Source: a virus
IMG/VR virus record: IMGVR_UViG_3300046798_000124
Location: 1-64,000 of that record
Strand: one strand, 5' to 3'
DNA: 64,000 nucleotides
In this document: positions 3,003-21,518 of the stretch, in pieces
Numbering within the stretch: the stretch's first letter is position 1
Layout: each line of letters begins with the position of its first letter
Program-made: the position numbers and the translations under genes
The notes under the pieces: model-generated
The model's database searches: none
What the model saw: the letters and a program-made list of their open reading frames with translations, nothing else
Told to the model about the DNA's origin: nothing

Positions 3003-3892
3003 CTACGACGACGACGGCTCGCCCGGCGGCGCCGCACTGACCATCGGCACCCCGAAGGTCACGGACATCCAGCGGGCCAGACCGGCTTTGTCAACGCCCT
3101 GGCCGTTGACGGTGAACAGGGGAGCGCCGGGACCACCAATGACGGAGCTTGCGACCGCACGTCGAGCCGTCCGCCTGGAGATCGCGCGGTACCAGCCCTT
3201 GTGCCCATCCTTGGAGAGGTGGGGCACCGAGGCGGCTTGCGCCGCGTCCAGCGACCGCTCGGCTCGCAGACGGTCGAGGTTGTCGTGGTAGGCCAGCAAC
3301 AGACACTCCGGCATCGCTAGGAGCTGCTCGGGTCCGAGTCCGTAGAAGGCGGTGAGATCGGCGAGGAGAGCGCCATAGTCGGTTGGCTCACCTCGCCCAC
3401 CACTTCCGGGGGTGCGTCCTCAGGCCGGCCCGCCGTGTTCCAGACCCCCAGCATCCGCAGGAGGTCAGTGGCTGGCCCCTCATCCCCCGGTGCGACAGCC
3501 GCCAGCACGTCAGCCTCGGCGGTCGTCAGCCCCGGGACCAGGACGCAGATCGTCTCGCGCAGGAAGGTGTGCCAGGCGACGATGAAGAGCGAGGTGTCCC
3601 GAGGGGCGGCCCCAGCCTCGACATCGCTCACCTGACTGCTCATCTCACCGAGCGCCTTCATGTAGGCGGCTTCAATCGACGCAAGCTCAGCCTTGATCAC
3701 CCCGGGACACCGCGGGCCAAACACGTAGGCCTGGAGCACTACGTCGACCAACTCCGGGGTCTGGTCACGACGCGGATCGTCCTCAGCCAGCGCCAACCAG
3801 AGCGGGTTGGTTCGGGAGATGACGACCGGATGCCGCTCGGGCACGAGGTGCCCGAGCCGAACCGGCAGAGCAGATGAGACCGGCATCGGCAA
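3003..3892 (-). CDS. Tail assembly chaperone GT-type fusion (predicted -1 frameshift product)
   Basis: The upstream frame (start 3892) and the downstream frame (ending 3003) fit a lambda G/GT arrangement. In the -1 frame, after a TGA near 3423, the sequence is open through a Pro/Gly linker into DYGALLADLTAFYGLGPEQL and then the 3003-3314 reading frame. That reads as a continuous chaperone tail domain. The shift must occur in the window after the -1 TGA. The most likely site is the CCCCCG run near 3406-3412, where CCG can slip to CCC. The exact slip site is inference. The product would act in tail assembly with the tape measure protein, which is not in the window. Confidence 0.6.
3317..3892 (-). 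CDS. Tail assembly chaperone, short (G-like) form
   Basis: 191 residues starting MPMPVSSALPVRLGHLV. It lies directly downstream of the tail-tube genes, the place of lambda gpG-like chaperones. The body is helical, and the last ~40 residues are low-complexity Ser/Pro, as expected where the 0-frame runs into sequence under selection in the -1 frame. It ends at a TAG just before the ATG-proximal part of the T frame. It would be made without frameshifting and in excess over the GT form. No sequence-level family signature beyond context is claimed. Confidence 0.55.
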   Translation of the reverse strand: MPMPVSSALPVRLGHLVPERHPVVISRTNPLWLALAEDDPRRDQTPELVDVVLQAYVFGPRCPGVIKAELASIEAAYMKALGEMSSQVSDVEAGAAPRDTSLFIVAWHTFLRETICVLVPGLTTAEADVLAAVAPGDEGPATDLLRMLGVWNTAGRPEDAPPEVVGEVSQPTMALSSPISPPSTDSDPSSS

Positions 3893-3897
3893 CTCCC

Positions 3898-4494
3898 TTA
3901 CGGCAAGGCGGGCACGACATCGCGGATCTTCGCCACGCGCGCCGGTGAGACCGAGGTATCGGGCAGCAGCGTCGCTTCGATCGGGACCATCGCCTTCGCG
4001 TCAACGGTGAAGTCGACGGCCATAGATCCCGACATCTGGCAGCGATAGCCGATGATCCGGAAGGCCTGGAGGTCCTGGGTCTGGATGTCGAAGCCAATGC
4101 TCACGAACACGTCGGTGATCAGCGAGCCGATGGCGAGGTCGTTGTGACCCTTCACCCCGGAGATCGGCGCCGTGGTCGTCAGGGTCCCCTGGCCCGAGGC
4201 CAGCTGGATCTTGGCCGGCGACATCTCGGCCAGGTTGAAGCTCATCGTGGCTGACCGAGCGGTCGCAGGCCGCATGACCGGGTCGAGCGACTGGTCCACC
4301 GAGACGTCGGCACGGGTGATGTCGGTGCCGAAGTGCAACCCGCCGTCGGTGTACCCCTGAAGGACCCATGGGGTCAGCCAGGGGTCGCCCCAGATCAGGG
4401 TATCGAGCGGCAGATCGTTGGTGGTGGCGTAGGCGGCGGTGTAGGCCCAGAAGTTTCTGGTTTGCAGAACTTGAAGGGCATCTGGTTCGGCCAT
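3898..4494 (-). CDS. Major tail (tube) protein, second copy
   Basis: 198 residues, starting MAEPDALQVLQTRNFWAYT. It is a close paralogue of the gene immediately upstream, sharing long blocks such as WVLQGYTDGGLHFGTDITR and VSIGFDIQTQDL. Size, beta-rich composition and position before the tail chaperones match siphovirus tail-tube proteins. The copies differ mainly near residues 20-45 and 115-125. Two adjacent tube-like genes suggest a duplicated tube or tube plus a decorated or terminal-ring variant. Confidence 0.7.
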   Translation of the reverse strand: MAEPDALQVLQTRNFWAYTAAYATTNDLPLDTLIWGDPWLTPWVLQGYTDGGLHFGTDITRADVSVDQSLDPVMRPATARSATMSFNLAEMSPAKIQLASGQGTLTTTAPISGVKGHNDLAIGSLITDVFVSIGFDIQTQDLQAFRIIGYRCQMSGSMAVDFTVDAKAMVPIEATLLPDTSVSPARVAKIRDVVPALP

Positions 4495-14951: not shown

Positions 14952-15136
14952 GGCCTCCCCTCCCCCTGAACCCGCTCACCACGCTCGGCCGGCGACCAGG
15001 CCAGCACGGATTCCAGCAGGCCGTCACAGAGCCGTCCAACCTCAAGCAGCATGTCGCAGTGGTGGAGCCCGTCACGGTCGACCATCGCTGTCGGCCGGCG
15101 GCCATGCACCGAGCACCAGTATTCGAGCACCAGCAT
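14948..15136 (-). CDS. Hypothetical small protein
   Basis: 62 residues starting MLVLEYWCSVHGRRP. The ATG lies directly after the upstream stop. One possible zinc pair (C..H) is at the N-terminus, and the rest is helical. Overlaps the next gene as ATGA. Nothing more can be said. Confidence 0.45.
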   Translation of the reverse strand: MLVLEYWCSVHGRRPTAMVDRDGLHHCDMLLEVGRLCDGLLESVLAWSPAERGERVQGEGRP

Positions 15137-15137
15137 C

Positions 15138-15473
15138 TCAGACCTCCACTGGGACCAGGGTCGTGTACCGCTCGGCCGAGTCAATCGGGTCGGCGTCCGA
15201 GCAGAGGAGCACCAGCTCCCAGACCGGCTCACCCCGCAGCCGGCAGAGCCGCCAGTCCCGAGCGATCACCCGCAGCCGGGTCGTCTGAAAGGCCGGGTGG
15301 ACGCAGAGCCCCGGCGGGATCTCCAGCAAGTCGCCACGATGGAACGCGTTGGCGTCGACCCCGGAGATCTCAAACTGCGGCACCAGGAACGGTGCGTCGT
15401 CGCCCGTGCGCTGGCGCAAGGCCATCGGTCCGAGCAGGCACCCGCCGGCGATCACCCTGGTCAGCATGGCCAA
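15138..15473 (-). CDS. Hypothetical beta-rich protein
   Basis: 111 residues. Alternating hydrophobic strands (FLVPQFEISGVD, RLRVIARDWRLCRL, VWELVLLCSDAD) suggest a small beta-barrel. It lies 4 bp downstream of the large terminase gene. No family recognised. Confidence 0.45.
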   Translation of the reverse strand: MAMLTRVIAGGCLLGPMALRQRTGDDAPFLVPQFEISGVDANAFHRGDLLEIPPGLCVHPAFQTTRLRVIARDWRLCRLRGEPVWELVLLCSDADPIDSAERYTTLVPVEV

Positions 15474-15476
15474 CTC

Positions 15477-17450
15477 CTAGATGACGTACTCGCGGCGACC
15501 GCCTCGACGGAGCGGACGGTCGGGATTCCCATAGGACCGGCGAATATCCGCGCCGGCGGCACGCTCGATGACCGCGCGCACCTGCGCGCGACGACTCGGA
15601 CCGGCCGGCTGTGCGGGTCGACTGCCGTACCCGGCCGCCGGCTGCACGAGATCGCTGCGGTTACCACCGACCGCCGCCGCGAACGTCGCCCCCGACGACG
15701 GCAGGGTCTCACGAGCGACCATGTCGTACACGCACGCATGCATCAAATGGTCTGGGCCGGAGTGCAGCCAGACCGAGACCGGCTGCCCTCGGGTGTCGGG
15801 CATCGTCGTCCGCGTCGGGCTCTGGAGATGGGCCTGGAACTCGGGGTCATTGACGACATCAGCCGGCGCCGGCTGGGCGATCTTGACGATCATGGCGCGG
15901 ACCCGGTCGAGCGCCATCGTCCGATTGATCGTGATCACGTCAACCTTGAGGCGTTCCAGCAGCCGGCGGTTCCGCAGCTTCTTCAGATCGAGGCCGTCCA
16001 TATGCCACAGCTGCCCTTTGAGGGCGCTCGGCCCGGGGTAGAAGGCGCGCAGCACGCGCCCTGGCCAGCGGGCGGCGAACTCCTTTGCCGAGTCAAGGTC
16101 CGGCTGGGCATCCACGATGCAGCGGCGAATCCTGAAGGTCCGCATCAAGCCATCGAGGTCGGCCCACTCATCGACACTGCCCACCGCCAGGATGTAGCGC
16201 CGACCGTCGGCGGCGTTGGTGGCCGAGGTAACCCAGTGCTTCTTGAAGCCGACGTCAACACCAAGGGTCGGGTCCGTCCATCGCCCCTTCGGCAGTTGCC
16301 CGTTCTCGAGCGGGGATGCCAGCTGGAGGATCTGCTCGAGGGTGACCTTGCTGCCGGCCACGGTGTACGGCAGGCCCAGGTCCGACTGGAAAAACTGCTG
16401 GCGCTCGAACGGGTCGGGGTTCACAGCAGCTGCGGCCAGTCGCAGCAAATCGACAGAAGGAAAGGCCATCGGCGGCACCCAGTACCCCCGCAGGCCCTGG
16501 ACCTCGGGCGCCTGCGAGACCCAGCGGCCCTCAGAGATCCGCTCCTCGTCGGTGACGAGGTCGCCGCACTCCGGGCAGTGCAGGGTGACACGGTGGCGCC
16601 GGATCTCCTCGGAGGGCCACTCGCCCCAGGCATCATGACCCTGGCCACGGACCCGCACGTCGCGGAGGAAGTCGTACAGCACCCAGGCGCCGCATCGGTG
16701 ACGCTGCTCGTAGCGGTGCTGATCGGAGTCGAGGAACATCCGGTGAATCCCAAAGCCGGGCACCGAGGGTGTCGAGATGTCGATCTCGCGGCGCACCATC
16801 GAGGCGTTCAGGCGGCGTCGCGCCAGCGCGACAGCCGAGCCGGCCATCTCATCGAACTCGTCCAGAATCAGGACGTCGGCCGGGAAGCTCTTGAGCGCCG
16901 AGGTCGACCAGCCGCCACGCAGATAGAGGAAGCTCTCGCGGACCTGTTTGAAGGTCACGGCATTGAAGGCGTCGTCGCCGCCGCCGAACAACTGCGAGAG
17001 ATAGGGACTTTCTCTCGCCAGTGAGGAGAGACGCTCCTTCGAGAAGTCCCCGAGGGCCTCTTTCTTGGGGAAAATATAGGCGACGTTCAGACCATCCTTG
17101 TCGTCGTCGGTCCAGACGGTCGCGCCCCGATCCAGGGCAAAGCCGGTGACGTTGATAGCGTACTCGGAGACGCCCCGCTGGGCCGGCTTGATGATCGCGA
17201 TGTGCTGGTGCGGGTCAGCGTAGATCTGTTTAAGCGGGCGGTGGCGCTCTAAGCTGAACGCTCTACCCTCCAGCTTACGGTGGAGGATCGCCCACTCCAG
17301 GGCATTGGTCGGGCCGGTGGCTGCGTGCTTCGCGAACTCGCGCACGACAGACGGCGCCTGCGCTCGGGCCGCCTCGGCCTGGCCCTGCAACTGCCGTGAG
17401 AGGGACGAGAGGAGTGAGCCTCGGAGACGTGACCCGGATGGACTGGACAT
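15477..17450 (-). CDS. Terminase large subunit, GpA family
   Basis: 657 residues, close to lambda gpA in length. The ATPase domain has a deviant Walker A (IIKPAQRGVSEYA near residue 96), the FPKKEALGDFSKERL block and Walker B VLILDEFDEM near residue 195. A zinc-like CGAW..CPECGDL insertion is at ~residues 252-290. The nuclease domain includes GVDVGFKKHWV near residue 393 and CIVDAQPDLDSAKEFA. It cuts and translocates phage DNA into proheads with the small subunit encoded upstream. Confidence 0.9.
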   Translation of the reverse strand: MSSPSGSRLRGSLLSSLSRQLQGQAEAARAQAPSVVREFAKHAATGPTNALEWAILHRKLEGRAFSLERHRPLKQIYADPHQHIAIIKPAQRGVSEYAINVTGFALDRGATVWTDDDKDGLNVAYIFPKKEALGDFSKERLSSLARESPYLSQLFGGGDDAFNAVTFKQVRESFLYLRGGWSTSALKSFPADVLILDEFDEMAGSAVALARRRLNASMVRREIDISTPSVPGFGIHRMFLDSDQHRYEQRHRCGAWVLYDFLRDVRVRGQGHDAWGEWPSEEIRRHRVTLHCPECGDLVTDEERISEGRWVSQAPEVQGLRGYWVPPMAFPSVDLLRLAAAAVNPDPFERQQFFQSDLGLPYTVAGSKVTLEQILQLASPLENGQLPKGRWTDPTLGVDVGFKKHWVTSATNAADGRRYILAVGSVDEWADLDGLMRTFRIRRCIVDAQPDLDSAKEFAARWPGRVLRAFYPGPSALKGQLWHMDGLDLKKLRNRRLLERLKVDVITINRTMALDRVRAMIVKIAQPAPADVVNDPEFQAHLQSPTRTTMPDTRGQPVSVWLHSGPDHLMHACVYDMVARETLPSSGATFAAAVGGNRSDLVQPAAGYGSRPAQPAGPSRRAQVRAVIERAAGADIRRSYGNPDRPLRRGGRREYVI

Positions 17451-18214: not shown

Positions 18215-19888
18215 TCATGTTCGCGATCCAAAAATCGAGCCGGCCTGTTTGAACCATGGCTCACGGGAGGGTGACACCGAACGCCCTCCACCATAAGACG
18301 CGTAGCGCGGCTTCCGCTTGAGCGGGAACGGCCGCGTTGCCCAGGCCACGAAGTCGGTCGGTACGACGGCACAGACACAGGTCCACCCGAGCGGCATCCC
18401 CATCAGCCACTCGACGAACAGCGCCGAGAGTTGCGGGCGCAAGATCCGGCCGCCGAGCGAGGATGGCAGCCCAGCCGCCTCGGTCGTCGGGTCGGGGTGG
18501 CCAGGCAGGAAGCCGCCCGTCATCGACCGGGTGACCTGTTCCGTCAGCGGGCGACTGTTCCTGTGGGCGACCTCCTCCGAGGCCTCGCCCGACCGGAAGT
18601 CCGACTGCCTCGGCGTCATCCACTGGTGACGGACCTGATTCGGCAGCTGCTGCCCTCGGGTCTCGTTCCCCTTGCGCCGCTCCTGAGAGTCCTCCGAATT
18701 CGGCATCCGGTAGTCGCGCGCTGCCGGCGTCGCCCAGTCCTTCGTCATCCCCGTCAGGGAGTCCTGCGCCCCCGGATGGTTGCCGGCCGACTCCGCGTCC
18801 TCGGCCCGACTGGTCGGCCAGAGCCGGATCGCGTCCGTCAGCGTCGTCCCCGGATGCATGCGGCCAGTGGTTGTCGTATGTCGGCCAGCGGAGGCTGCCT
18901 CCTTGGTGTTGGCCGTCGGCCAGTTCGCCTGCGCCTCCTGCGACTCCTGGGCCACGATCGAGAGCGGCACCCCCGCCCCGTTGCCGTTGTAGCCCTTCTC
19001 CTTTAAGAGTGCCTGTCGCTTCCGCCAGGTCTCCGGCCCCTCGCCGTCGTTCGCCACCGACGCGTTCGGGGTCGGCCAGGTCGTCCTGGTCACTTCCTGG
19101 GCCTGACCGTACAGGAGCGGCTCGTCGGAACGCTCCCCACCACGGTAGGCGTTCCTGCCCCCCGACTTCTGGGTCTGCCCATTCTGATTGGCTTCCCAGA
19201 TCCGCCGGTCCTGCGGCGTCAATTCCGTCTCGTCGTGGTACTCGCGCGGCAGGATCCCCTGGCTCAACTCGGCCATCTGACCCAGTGAGGGCTCCGACCA
19301 GTGGCAGTCTACCGTCAACGAGCCCTGGCTCGCCCGATCCGCCGCCACCCGCGGCGTCGACCAGGGCTCGGTCCCAGGCGAGGCACCACCAGCGGTTTCG
19401 GCCATGGGGAGCGCCAACATCGCTCGCTCGGAGACAGCCCCATTCCGCATCGAACCCGCTTTCGGAAAGGCCCCCGAGAACAACGTCGAGTCCTCGTCCG
19501 GTGAGCTGGGCAACGTTCTCCAGGTAGACGTAGCGGGGTCGAACCTCGCGAAGGACGCGGAGGACCTCGAACCAGAGGCCGGAGCGCTCACCGTAGATGC
19601 CGGCGCCACGTCCGGCCAGGGAGATGTCCTGGCAGGGGAAGCCGGCAACGACAAGATCCACGACGCCACGCCACGCTCGGCCGTCGAAGGTTTCGAGATC
19701 GTCCCAGATAGGGAAATGAGGTAGGGTGCCGTCAGACATGCGCGCCGCGAGAACGGCCACAGCAGGGGCTTCGTTCTCAACCGCAGCGACAGTTCGGTAC
19801 CCGGGGAGAGCGCGTCCGACGCCGAGTCCAAGCCCGCCGATGCCGGCGCAGAGCTCAAGACCGTTGAGGGGACGTAGACCCACCCCAT
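18215..19888 (-). CDS. Overlapping-frame product of the methyltransferase locus
   Basis: 557 residues in a different frame of the same strand as the C5-methyltransferase. The ATG has GGAGGT 5 nt upstream and overlaps the preceding stop as TGATG. This is a better initiation site than that of the methyltransferase frame. After a Ser/Pro-rich start, residues ~115-185 (FARFDPATSTWRTL, FSGAFPKAGSMRNGAV) and repeated WPTPN/WATPAARD units lead to LSALFVEWLMGMPLGWT. As I recall, this pattern occurs in many phage and metagenome proteins annotated as DNA-methylase-like. Function unknown. Both frames look selected. Confidence 0.55.
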   Translation of the reverse strand: MGWVYVPSTVLSSAPASAGLDSASDALSPGTELSLRLRTKPLLWPFSRRACLTAPYLISLSGTISKPSTAERGVASWILSLPASPARTSPWPDVAPASTVSAPASGSRSSASFARFDPATSTWRTLPSSPDEDSTLFSGAFPKAGSMRNGAVSERAMLALPMAETAGGASPGTEPWSTPRVAADRASQGSLTVDCHWSEPSLGQMAELSQGILPREYHDETELTPQDRRIWEANQNGQTQKSGGRNAYRGGERSDEPLLYGQAQEVTRTTWPTPNASVANDGEGPETWRKRQALLKEKGYNGNGAGVPLSIVAQESQEAQANWPTANTKEAASAGRHTTTTGRMHPGTTLTDAIRLWPTSRAEDAESAGNHPGAQDSLTGMTKDWATPAARDYRMPNSEDSQERRKGNETRGQQLPNQVRHQWMTPRQSDFRSGEASEEVAHRNSRPLTEQVTRSMTGGFLPGHPDPTTEAAGLPSSLGGRILRPQLSALFVEWLMGMPLGWTCVCAVVPTDFVAWATRPFPLKRKPRYASYGGGRSVSPSREPWFKQAGSIFGSRT

Positions 19889-19895
19889 CAGTCAC
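18261..19895 (-). CDS. DNA (cytosine-5-)-methyltransferase
   Basis: About 544 residues. Motif I LELCAGIGGLGLGVG, motif IV with the catalytic Cys GFPCQDISLAGRGAGI, motif VI YVYLENVAQL and motif VIII GRNRWWCLAW are in the first 210 residues. Motif X LRGLGNAAVPAQAEAAL is at the C-terminus. The central ~280 residues are Gly/Asp-rich with LADPE-like repeats, the variable target-recognition zone. The start is uncertain: GTG at 19895 or 19883. It may protect phage DNA from host restriction. Almost the whole gene is also open in the frame of the neighbouring entry. Confidence 0.85.
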   Translation of the reverse strand: MTDGVGLRPLNGLELCAGIGGLGLGVGRALPGYRTVAAVENEAPAVAVLAARMSDGTLPHFPIWDDLETFDGRAWRGVVDLVVAGFPCQDISLAGRGAGIYGERSGLWFEVLRVLREVRPRYVYLENVAQLTGRGLDVVLGGLSESGFDAEWGCLRASDVGAPHGRNRWWCLAWDRALVDAAGGGGSGEPGLVDGRLPLVGALTGSDGRVEPGDPAARVPRRDGIDAAGPADLGSQSEWADPEVGGQERLPWWGAFRRAAPVRSGPGSDQDDLADPERVGGERRRGAGDLAEATGTLKGEGLQRQRGGGAALDRGPGVAGGAGELADGQHQGGSLRWPTYDNHWPHASGDDADGRDPALADQSGRGRGVGRQPSGGAGLPDGDDEGLGDAGSARLPDAEFGGLSGAAQGERDPRAAAAESGPSPVDDAEAVGLPVGRGLGGGRPQEQSPADGTGHPVDDGRLPAWPPRPDDRGGWAAILARRPDLAPATLGAVRRVADGDAARVDLCLCRRTDRLRGLGNAAVPAQAEAALRVLWWRAFGVTLP

Positions 19896-20358
19896 CTCCC
19901 ACCTCAAAGCTCGACAGCACCGTGGCGGTATGCAGAAGCTCCGGCTCGCCGTCAAGCTGGCGACGGGCCTGTTCGGCCACGTAGGCGTCGAAGCCCGGAT
20001 CACGGTTCTGCTCGGCGCGGCGGGCGGTCTCTAGCTTCGCTCCAGGACAGCGTGGTCCCGCGTGGATAGCCCGTCCGTACGGCAGGACGTGCCGCAGCGC
20101 CTCGAGGCGGGTCGGGCCGAGCCTGGGGATCGACCGCAACAGCCAGTCCGGGCAGGGGATGAGCACCCGGTAACAGGTGATACCTGCCCGCCTGATGGCC
20201 ATGATGGTGTCCCGATCCAGACCCAGCCCCGACCACTCGGCCTCGGCGATCTCATCGTCGTACGGGTCGTGCCAGTAGATCCGGTGCGCCTCCCAGAAGG
20301 GAGCCAGATGGGCGGTGCTGGTGCGGTAGCGGCGCTCGGGCGGCACGATCATGACCAT
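19888..20358 (-). CDS. Hypothetical protein with helix-hairpin-helix-like segment
   Basis: 156 residues. LLRSIPRLGPTRLEALRHVLPYG near residue 75 looks like a helix-hairpin-helix DNA contact (I-P-x-L-G-P-x-R). Upstream is an IMAIRRAGITCYRVL segment of similar type, so two HhH units are possible. The stop overlaps the start of the overlapping-frame gene (TGATG). It may act on DNA with the methyltransferase; this is inferred only from context. Confidence 0.5.
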   Translation of the reverse strand: MVMIVPPERRYRTSTAHLAPFWEAHRIYWHDPYDDEIAEAEWSGLGLDRDTIMAIRRAGITCYRVLIPCPDWLLRSIPRLGPTRLEALRHVLPYGRAIHAGPRCPGAKLETARRAEQNRDPGFDAYVAEQARRQLDGEPELLHTATVLSSFEVGGD

Positions 20359-20361
20359 GGC

Positions 20362-21162
20362 TCAACCCCCAAGCCCACTCGGTGAGGCCGGCAGCAGGTA
20401 GGCTCGGACACCGGCATCCTCGAAGACCTCGGCAAGCTCCTCCAGGAGCTCCTCGGCCTCGGTCTCACTCCGGCACTCGACCACGAGCGGGTGGACGAGA
20501 TCATCGACGGCCCCGAGGTGACCCCCGCGACCGCCACCCTGTGGACCGAAGGCCGCGCCGACAACCCGCCCCTCAGGCGCATCATCCACAGGCTCACGCT
20601 TCGAACGGGCCGCAAGTCCCGCCAGCATCACCTTCAGGGGATCGGCCTGGACCTGGGCCTTCGCAGCCAGTTCCGCCAGCTTCTGTCGGTCGGCGGTCGC
20701 CATGGCGCCAATCGGGTCATGGGTCGCCAGAATCGCGGCCTCATCCTCGTCGCTCTGGCAGTCGATCCAGCCCACCGGCACCACCGCCTGGCCGGTCCGG
20801 ATCGCCTCAGCGACCCTGAGGTGGCCGTCGAGGATGCGTCCGGAGCGCCGGCTCACCAGGACCTCGCCGACGAAGCCCACCTCCTCGATCGCCGCTTCGA
20901 GCGCCTCACGCTGGGCGACGGGGTGGCCCCGAAAGTTATCGGGGTGGTTGATCAGGTCCGAGGGGTCGACGAGGTCGTGGGCGACGACGCGGAGGTGCCA
21001 TGCTGGGGTGGCGGCTCGGCGATCATCAGTGCCAACAGGACCGCCAGCCCCTGAAACTGCCGATGCTGTCGTGGCAGGGGTGGCGTCGGCACCCTCAGGC
21101 GAGAGTCGCGGGTCGGCTCGATCCGCTGATGAGGACGCGGTGCTCCGTCTGCCATCAGACAT
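20362..21162 (-). CDS. ParB-like N-terminal (ParB/Srx) domain protein
   Basis: 266 residues from MSDGRRSTASS. The N-terminal ~45 residues are disordered. The core is ParB-like: VDPSDLINHPDNFRGHP, then EEVGFVGEVLVSRRSGRILDGHLRVAEAI (the box with DGH) and VPVGWIDCQSDEDEAAIL. This fold occurs in partition proteins and in phage proteins next to methyltransferases. The C-terminal half lacks a clear helix-turn-helix. Either chromosome/plasmid partition or a methylase-associated role is possible. Confidence 0.75.
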   Translation of the reverse strand: MSDGRRSTASSSADRADPRLSPEGADATPATTASAVSGAGGPVGTDDRRAATPAWHLRVVAHDLVDPSDLINHPDNFRGHPVAQREALEAAIEEVGFVGEVLVSRRSGRILDGHLRVAEAIRTGQAVVPVGWIDCQSDEDEAAILATHDPIGAMATADRQKLAELAAKAQVQADPLKVMLAGLAARSKREPVDDAPEGRVVGAAFGPQGGGRGGHLGAVDDLVHPLVVECRSETEAEELLEELAEVFEDAGVRAYLLPASPSGLGG

Positions 21163-21319
21163 GTGCCCGGGCCAGCGCATGGCAGACGACGAGACCAGCA
21201 GCGAGGAACGCGAGGGCCAGGTCCGAGAGACCAAACGGCCCCAACTGGCCAACGCCGATCGAAGCCAGGAGCGCCAGGACACCGGCGATGGCGTAGAGCG
21301 CGGTCGCACCAACCAGCAT
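21155..21319 (-). CDS. Small two-segment membrane protein
   Basis: 54 residues, almost entirely hydrophobic (ATALYAIAGVLALLASIGVG and LALAFLAAGLVVCHAL). GAGGGGGA precedes the ATG. It is the first gene of the minus-strand late operon and overlaps the ParB-like start by 8 bp. Function unknown. Confidence 0.5.
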   Translation of the reverse strand: MLVGATALYAIAGVLALLASIGVGQLGPFGLSDLALAFLAAGLVVCHALARAHV

Positions 21320-21344
21320 GACGTCCCCCTCGCTGTGGTGATAT

Positions 21345-21367
21345 TCCTCAACGGATTTCGTTGAGGA
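21345..21367. promoter_or_regulatory. Dyad in the divergent intergenic region
   Basis: A perfect 9-bp inverted repeat (TCCTCAACG / CGTTGAGGA, 5-nt spacer) lies 26 bp upstream of the first late-operon gene, between divergent gene clusters. It could be an operator or a leader hairpin controlling the leftward operon. The rest of 21320-21518 shows no gene. Confidence 0.45.
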
Positions 21368-21518
21368 TACTGCACACTCCAGGGTCCATGATACCGCACG
21401 GGTACCCAAAGTCCACCCAAACGGCCCAGGAATGGGTACTCCCTGGTCGGCTTGACTGGCTGACCATGAGTGAGGACTGTGACCGCACGTCTGCGGTCGG
21501 CGACTGAGGAGATGGAAC

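Follow-up and report, generated by a model that had tools for sequence, protein, structure and literature searches.

Organization of the locus

The window analyzed here (64,000 nucleotides, GC content of 66%) is part of a virus record of 74,167 bases, IMGVR_UViG_3300046798_000124. On its minus strand, the same 1.6 kb is open in two frames. Frame A extends from a GTG at 19883 to a stop at 18261 (positions 18261 to 19883, minus strand; 541 codons, stop included) and begins further upstream than this GTG if it is measured from stop to stop. It encodes the catalytic part of a C5-methyltransferase (alpha), as assigned from its matches to PF00145 and phrog_363 and from its alignment with 15 homologues. 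Frame B (beta), which is in the +1 frame relative to A, runs from an ATG at 19888 to a stop at 18215 (positions 18215 to 19888, minus strand; 557 amino acids); it was assigned from the alignment of its homologues and from its match to phrog_1008, and it is open in 166 of the 169 listed loci. The locus adjoins the gene encoding the terminase large subunit of the GpA family (15477 to 17450, minus strand) and a gene for a protein of 242 amino acids, and it lies downstream of a gene for one of 156 amino acids. A gene with a ParB-like domain is found upstream (20362 to 21420, minus strand) and matches phrog_620 and phrog_498. Antisense to the terminase gene, on the plus strand, there is an opening of 657 amino acids (15051 to 17024), which is probably a chance product of GC-rich DNA.

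The starts of the two frames are almost coincident. The segment at 19889 to 19901 (minus strand; GGAGGTGACTGATGGGGTGGG) comprises the end of the upstream gene and the GGAGGT common to both starts. In the window, this GGAGGT is found 5 nt before the ATG of B (GGAGGT-GACTG-ATG), the stop codon of the upstream gene shares one base with this ATG (TGATG), and the GTG of A follows 5 nt later. Among the 123 close loci, the usual start context is (A/G/T)TGAATGAG, where the start of A is followed 4 bases later by the ATG of B. The start codon of B is ATG in 121 of these loci, while that of A is ATG in 52, GTG in 37, and TTG in 20, with no usual start in 14. A Shine-Dalgarno-like sequence was found ahead of the start pair in 96 of the 123 loci.

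Frame A matched PF00145 at residues 8 to 172 (Pfam, E = 2e-30) and phrog_363 (E = 2.2e-54), the PF00145 match being confined to motifs I to VIII. All the motifs lie on the minus strand, in the order motifs I to VIII, a spacer, and motif X: motif I (CAGIGG, 19833 to 19850), motif IV with the catalytic PCQ (GFPCQD, 19626 to 19643), motif VI (ENV, 19506 to 19520), motif VIII (GAPHGRNR, 19392 to 19415), and motif X (GLGNAAVP, 18324 to 18347), the last of which also forms a conserved block of columns among the aligned homologues. The long middle part of A resembles nothing, and motif IX was not recognizable in frame A of the window; a IX-like segment sits in B. Among the features that define DNA cytosine-5 methyltransferases, motifs I, IV (PCQ), VI (ENV), VIII, and X are therefore present in A, while the recognition domain and the motif IX expected between VIII and X are found in B and not in A. 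The original prediction, made from the window alone, had described 1.6 kb open in two frames of the same strand, with motifs I, IV, VI, VIII, and X in one of them and a start with GGAGGT, a 5-nt spacing, and a TGATG overlap in the other, and each of these features was recovered, the motifs in A and the start at B.

Both frames are kept open in homologues

In the window, there are no frame-B stops, against 5.4 expected when the synonymous codons of A are shuffled. Since the DNA is GC-rich and other long overlapping open reading frames arise by chance near the locus, this is moderate evidence only, and it is the homologues that decide. When A and B were used as queries, the matches listed comprised more than 200 loci, found in viral contigs and in bacterial genomes (numbered here with the prefix L). 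Almost all close relatives had an open +1 frame over the full extent of A, whereas their third frame was full of stops.

We counted frame-B stops in a region bounded by A alone, from motif I to motif X, and the expectation was obtained by shuffling the synonymous codons of A within each gene. The 169 unique listed loci had 3 frame-B stops (638 expected) and 2,282 third-frame stops (1,963 expected), numbers that are inflated by shared descent, as the loci have common ancestry and the counts are not independent. No frame-B stop was found in the 56 listed loci with a GC content below 0.55, although 267 were expected. Stops in frame B do occur in 25 more distant methyltransferases (90 observed, 145 expected).

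In the reciprocal analysis, the synonymous codons of B were shuffled from motif VIII to the EWLMG segment of B in 171 listed loci, and this B-encoded region had 35 frame-A stops against 549 expected. All but one of the 35 were found in L005, L074, and L077, three loci with a short A that terminates shortly past motif VIII. Motif X is encoded in B instead of A in L074 and L077, so that A need not reach it and the tail of A fills with stops; this natural experiment says that the tail of A otherwise stays open so as to reach motif X. Each frame is thus free of stops beyond what the protein encoded by the other explains, and the double opening in homologues is far beyond chance. These counts support the view, put forward in the original prediction, that the overprinting is real and not accidental. 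The prediction had also named stops or absent constraint in one frame of close relatives as evidence against it; when we looked for these, both frames proved to be conserved.

Some individual loci have unusual structures. L039 and L126, on the same contig, represent a close relative with a broken frame B (B of 141 codons), possibly through a frameshift or decay. In L005 (3018 to 4133), A ends after motif VIII, B has repeats (see below) and the IX-like segment, and motif X is encoded by a separate A-frame open reading frame (3828 to 4133) with an ATG at 3876 preceded by AAAGG; to judge from this arrangement, a three-piece enzyme is possible. L272 (1501 to 2262; Escherichia coli PCP07014) is marked as a pseudogene for an internal stop in A, and B has a stop at about the same place.

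The frame under selection changes along the gene

The selection map was drawn from ungapped comparisons between homologous loci. The window has no close relative and was assigned to the family by homology, its identity with the homologues being 37 to 54% in A and 25 to 35% in B. In motifs I to VIII, 57 to 65% of the differences between homologues were at position 3 of the A codons. In the middle of the recognition region, 62 to 80% were at position 1 of A, which is position 3 of B, and the amino acid identity in the 70 to 90% identity bins was 0.84 to 0.91 for B, 0.45 to 0.57 for A, and 0.46 to 0.58 for the third frame. B is conserved there while A behaves like the meaningless third frame, which implies that the recognition region is coded by B. 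Near motif X, A was slightly above the meaningless frame and B was well above both. Hence, the constrained frame switches along the gene, from A in motifs I to VIII to B alone in the target-recognition region.

Freedom from stops holds in both frames throughout, whereas double constraint on amino acids is limited to a few islands, namely, the start of B, FDPxTSSWRT, PxxGxMRNG, and the zone of motifs IX and X. The original prediction, which had looked to constraint in both frames as a check, holds for stop freedom and for the islands, but at most positions strong constraint acts on a single frame. The raised conservation of the fourfold sites of A that we expected across motifs I to VIII was not found, the mean being no higher than that of the flanking genes. 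This indicates that the N-terminal stretch of B as a whole is weakly constrained, except at its islands. At these islands, the codons of A are almost fixed: GCC in 111 of 111 cases (27% gene-wide), GTG in 107 of 107 (21%), GGG in 129 of 130 (10%), ACT in 80 of 82 (11%), and CGA in 107 of 108. Most of the pairs in the fourfold-site comparison differ at 15 to 35% of A residues, and the island pattern is position specific.

One island of the window, SFARFDPATSTWRT (19514 to 19555, minus strand), lies over the motif VI region of A, where the matching fourfold sites of A are nearly invariant in homologues. Another, GAFPKAGSMRNG (19439 to 19474, minus strand), is just upstream of motif VIII of A and has the pattern (W/F/L)PxxGxMxxG, which is kept in 126 of 130 listed loci, against 2.7 in shuffles of the synonymous codons of A. 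Most loci encoding one-chain enzymes of the L220 type (see below) have frame-B stops in motifs I to VIII and have not kept the islands of B. The absence of the islands over motifs VI to VIII from one-chain enzymes suggests that they have a role in contact between subunits.

A probable recognition region and motif IX in frame B

Six W(P/S/A/M)T(P/A/S) repeats are found in B (18611 to 19363, minus strand), in a part that is constrained only in this frame in homologues, and they form the putative target-recognition region. The number of these WPTP-type repeats differs among homologues, and they could be modular recognition units giving a modular specificity. They are followed by the segment LRPQLSALFVEWLMGMPLGWT (18380 to 18442, minus strand), in which LNPxxVEWLMGxPxGWT reads as motif IX when it is aligned with single-frame and solved C5-methyltransferases. 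Pfam revealed no significant domain in B of the window or in the homologous B proteins, even in those with motif X. The cluster phrog_1008, labeled "DNA methyltransferase," matched B of the window (E = 2.9e-18). The AlphaFold model of beta alone was poor (pLDDT of 59).

That B provides motif IX and the recognition region is indicated by its relatives. In L220 and L227, both from Streptomyces, motifs I to VIII, the repeats, the IX-like segment, and motif X are all in one frame (in L220, motifs I to VIII, LPTP repeats, LSPAFVEWMMG, and motif X, in this order), and gp17 of Mycobacterium phage prophi104-2 also has B-type segments in one frame with motifs I to VIII and X. In L074, L077, L217, L264, and Streptomyces phage Lilbooboo, A is closed by a stop after motif VIII, and B has, in order, the repeats, the IX-like segment, and motif X. 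B-type proteins match phrog_1008 at 1e-25 (1.9e-36 for B of L074), and so does the C-terminal half of the single-frame L220 (2.7e-47). The predicted structure of L220 aligned with M.HhaI over almost the full length, with a Z score of 24.2 and an rmsd of 3.2 over 238 residues (model residues 10 to 415 against 11 to 327); the IX-X part of the model is confident and the repeats are not. A profile of the IX-X part also aligned at motif IX with solved DRM enzymes (LEPDEVEMLLGFP) and with solved Dcm-like enzymes (RLTPRECARLMGF), with marginal E values in the range of 0.004 to 0.04. Judging from these comparisons of sequences, the C-terminal half of B shares its ancestry with the half of single-frame methyltransferases that spans the recognition region and motifs IX and X. 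The IX-like segment is in the +1 frame and motif X in A in 145 listed loci. Among the matches listed, A is present in all the viral loci retrieved with B, with the exception of L007.

A probable two-subunit methyltransferase

The openness of both frames, the switch of the constrained frame, and the motif content were computed from the sequences, and from them we infer that A and B are translated separately, that they assemble into a heterodimer in which the islands have a role, and that the enzyme methylates DNA. With these elements, the locus very probably encodes a two-subunit C5-methyltransferase on two almost fully overlapping genes. The two protein patterns that had originally been recognized on the same bases would be complementary parts of one C5-methyltransferase and not unrelated proteins. 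A single Shine-Dalgarno site would serve the two start codons, the ATG of B and then, 5 nt later, the GTG of A. Translation from the start of A would give alpha, with motifs I to VIII (SAM binding and catalysis), a long stretch without detectable selection, and then motif X. Translation from the start of B would give beta, with an N-terminal stretch that mainly needs to stay open but has a few conserved islands, the WPTP-type repeats, and motif IX. The N-terminal islands of B may be the interface with alpha, and the repeats would form the target-recognition region. Alpha and beta would then join into one active enzyme, rebuilding a C5-methyltransferase.

Programmed frameshifting could instead produce one polypeptide, with motifs I to VIII read in A, the recognition region and motif IX read in B after a +1 shift, and, in loci of the window type, motif X reached by a shift back. 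This mechanism was named in 2015 as one option for mycobacteriophage pairs (PMC4351075), and it fits the change of the constrained frame from A to B along the gene and the order of domains in single-frame relatives (I to VIII, recognition, IX, X). Yet it requires neither the head of B nor the tail of A to be open, and both are; in all but two of the close loci, an ATG of its own starts B at a constant position, with conserved residues near the start; and two shifts would be needed in the window type, making this explanation improbable. We consider it more doubtful still, and indeed very unlikely, that the overprinted product of B is genuine but has another function, such as that of a regulator or an anti-restriction protein, instead of being a methyltransferase subunit. 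The lack of known Pfam domains in B and the lack of counterparts of its N-terminal islands in ordinary methyltransferases agree with such a function, but not the homology of its C-terminal half with the recognition-IX-X half of single-frame enzymes, nor the B proteins of L074, L217, and L264, which themselves bear motif X while A lacks it, nor the nearly constant presence of A in the viral loci retrieved with B. Finally, the idea that B is a chance opening shadowing a normal methyltransferase, with A as the sole gene, draws on the GC-rich window with its other long overlapping openings and on the unraised mean fourfold-site conservation in motifs I to VIII, but it is extremely improbable and already contradicted by the stop-free frame B of the loci with lower GC contents, by the recognition region where B is conserved and A is not, and by L074 and L077, which retain B where A is lost.

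The two-subunit enzyme of the window is probably one member of a class of phage and prophage C5-methyltransferases, widespread in several bacterial phyla, with two subunits encoded in near-complete overlap from near-coincident starts. In such a class, the selected frame would switch from the catalytic to the recognition part, and many of the C5-methyltransferases recorded in databases from one frame would be half enzymes, whose apparent recognition region would be unselected filler imposed by the partner frame.

Comparison with known two-part methyltransferases

Overlapping genes encode the subunits of M.EcoHK31I. This enzyme and M.AquI are natural C5-methyltransferases made of two polypeptides (PMC3404938). 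In M.EcoHK31I (YGGCCR), the larger subunit has motifs I to VIII and X, the smaller one has motif IX, and the recognition domain was predicted to be in the larger subunit (PMC3404938). The locus of the window is similar in having motifs I to VIII and X in one chain and motif IX only in the other. It differs in the recognition region, which is selected in frame B only, as seen in homologues, whereas its placement in M.EcoHK31I is a prediction. M.AquI (CYCGRG) is split near the recognition region, and its smaller, second subunit bears motifs IX and X (PMC3404938). The window shares with it the split near the recognition region and the presence of motif IX in the second subunit, but motif X is in A. 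In L074, L077, L217, and L264, where both IX and X are in B, the motif content is M.AquI-like.

Cluster O mycobacteriophages (genes 6 and 7 of Corndog; genes 5 and 6 of Firecracker) have overlapping N- and C-terminal halves of a cytosine methylase, for which the authors reported in 2015 that the overlap had coding potential, without deciding between two products, a frameshift, a hop, or an intron (PMC4351075). Firecracker, Kampy, and CloudWang3 each have a pair with a +1 overlap. In the Cluster O pairs, the overlap is partial and motif X is in the second gene, whereas the two genes of the window overlap almost entirely and motif X is in the first frame. On the question raised in 2015, our comparisons would favor two products. 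In Paenibacillus phage Jacopo, gp57 is annotated wholly within gp56, in the +1 frame, and both are called DNA methyltransferase. This is also a nested +1 pair, and gp57 ends in LNPDWVECLMGFPIGWTDINGQLD, but B starts inside A and not at the start of A. The passages retrieved from the paper on these phages have no comment on the overlap of gp56 and gp57 (PMC6070908). The cluster phrog_1008, which matches both B and the C-terminal halves of single-frame enzymes, is a label only and does not record the overlap with A. In the open-access literature, we found no description of such a full-length overlap, which is weak evidence of novelty. The present analysis adds a nearly complete overlap that begins at near-coincident starts, a map of selection per frame, the placement of the recognition region in B, and the wide occurrence of this arrangement.

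Distribution and annotation

Well over one hundred further viruses and bacteria share this arrangement, and databases usually list just one of the pair. Among the records examined, only A is annotated in E. coli PT62, Acinetobacter phage ABMM1, and Salmonella phage S9-5, and only B in Acidovorax phage Alfacinha3, Pseudomonas phage phPA-G, and Synechococcus phage Ssp-JY39, while both halves are annotated in Paenibacillus phage Jacopo. Many automatic annotations thus record one half only, and attempts to clone the enzyme from the annotation, or to predict its target from the variable region of frame A, would be likely to fail. If the two-subunit reading is true, these loci would be among the clearest long same-strand overlaps held in many unrelated genomes, with the two frames being parts of one enzyme.

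A B of the same kind as that of the window is also found in the +1 frame of L251, L248, L244, L254, L258, L259, and L263, which belong to further phyla, among them Bacteroidota and Bacillota. Several of these loci are AT-rich, and B is mostly shorter and nested inside A. L249, from Pseudomonas chlororaphis, encodes a distant type of methyltransferase and has a +1 opening of 265 amino acids with LSGSERLNMMGFASDWM, which looks like motif IX; the overlap arrangement may therefore extend beyond the family of the window locus.
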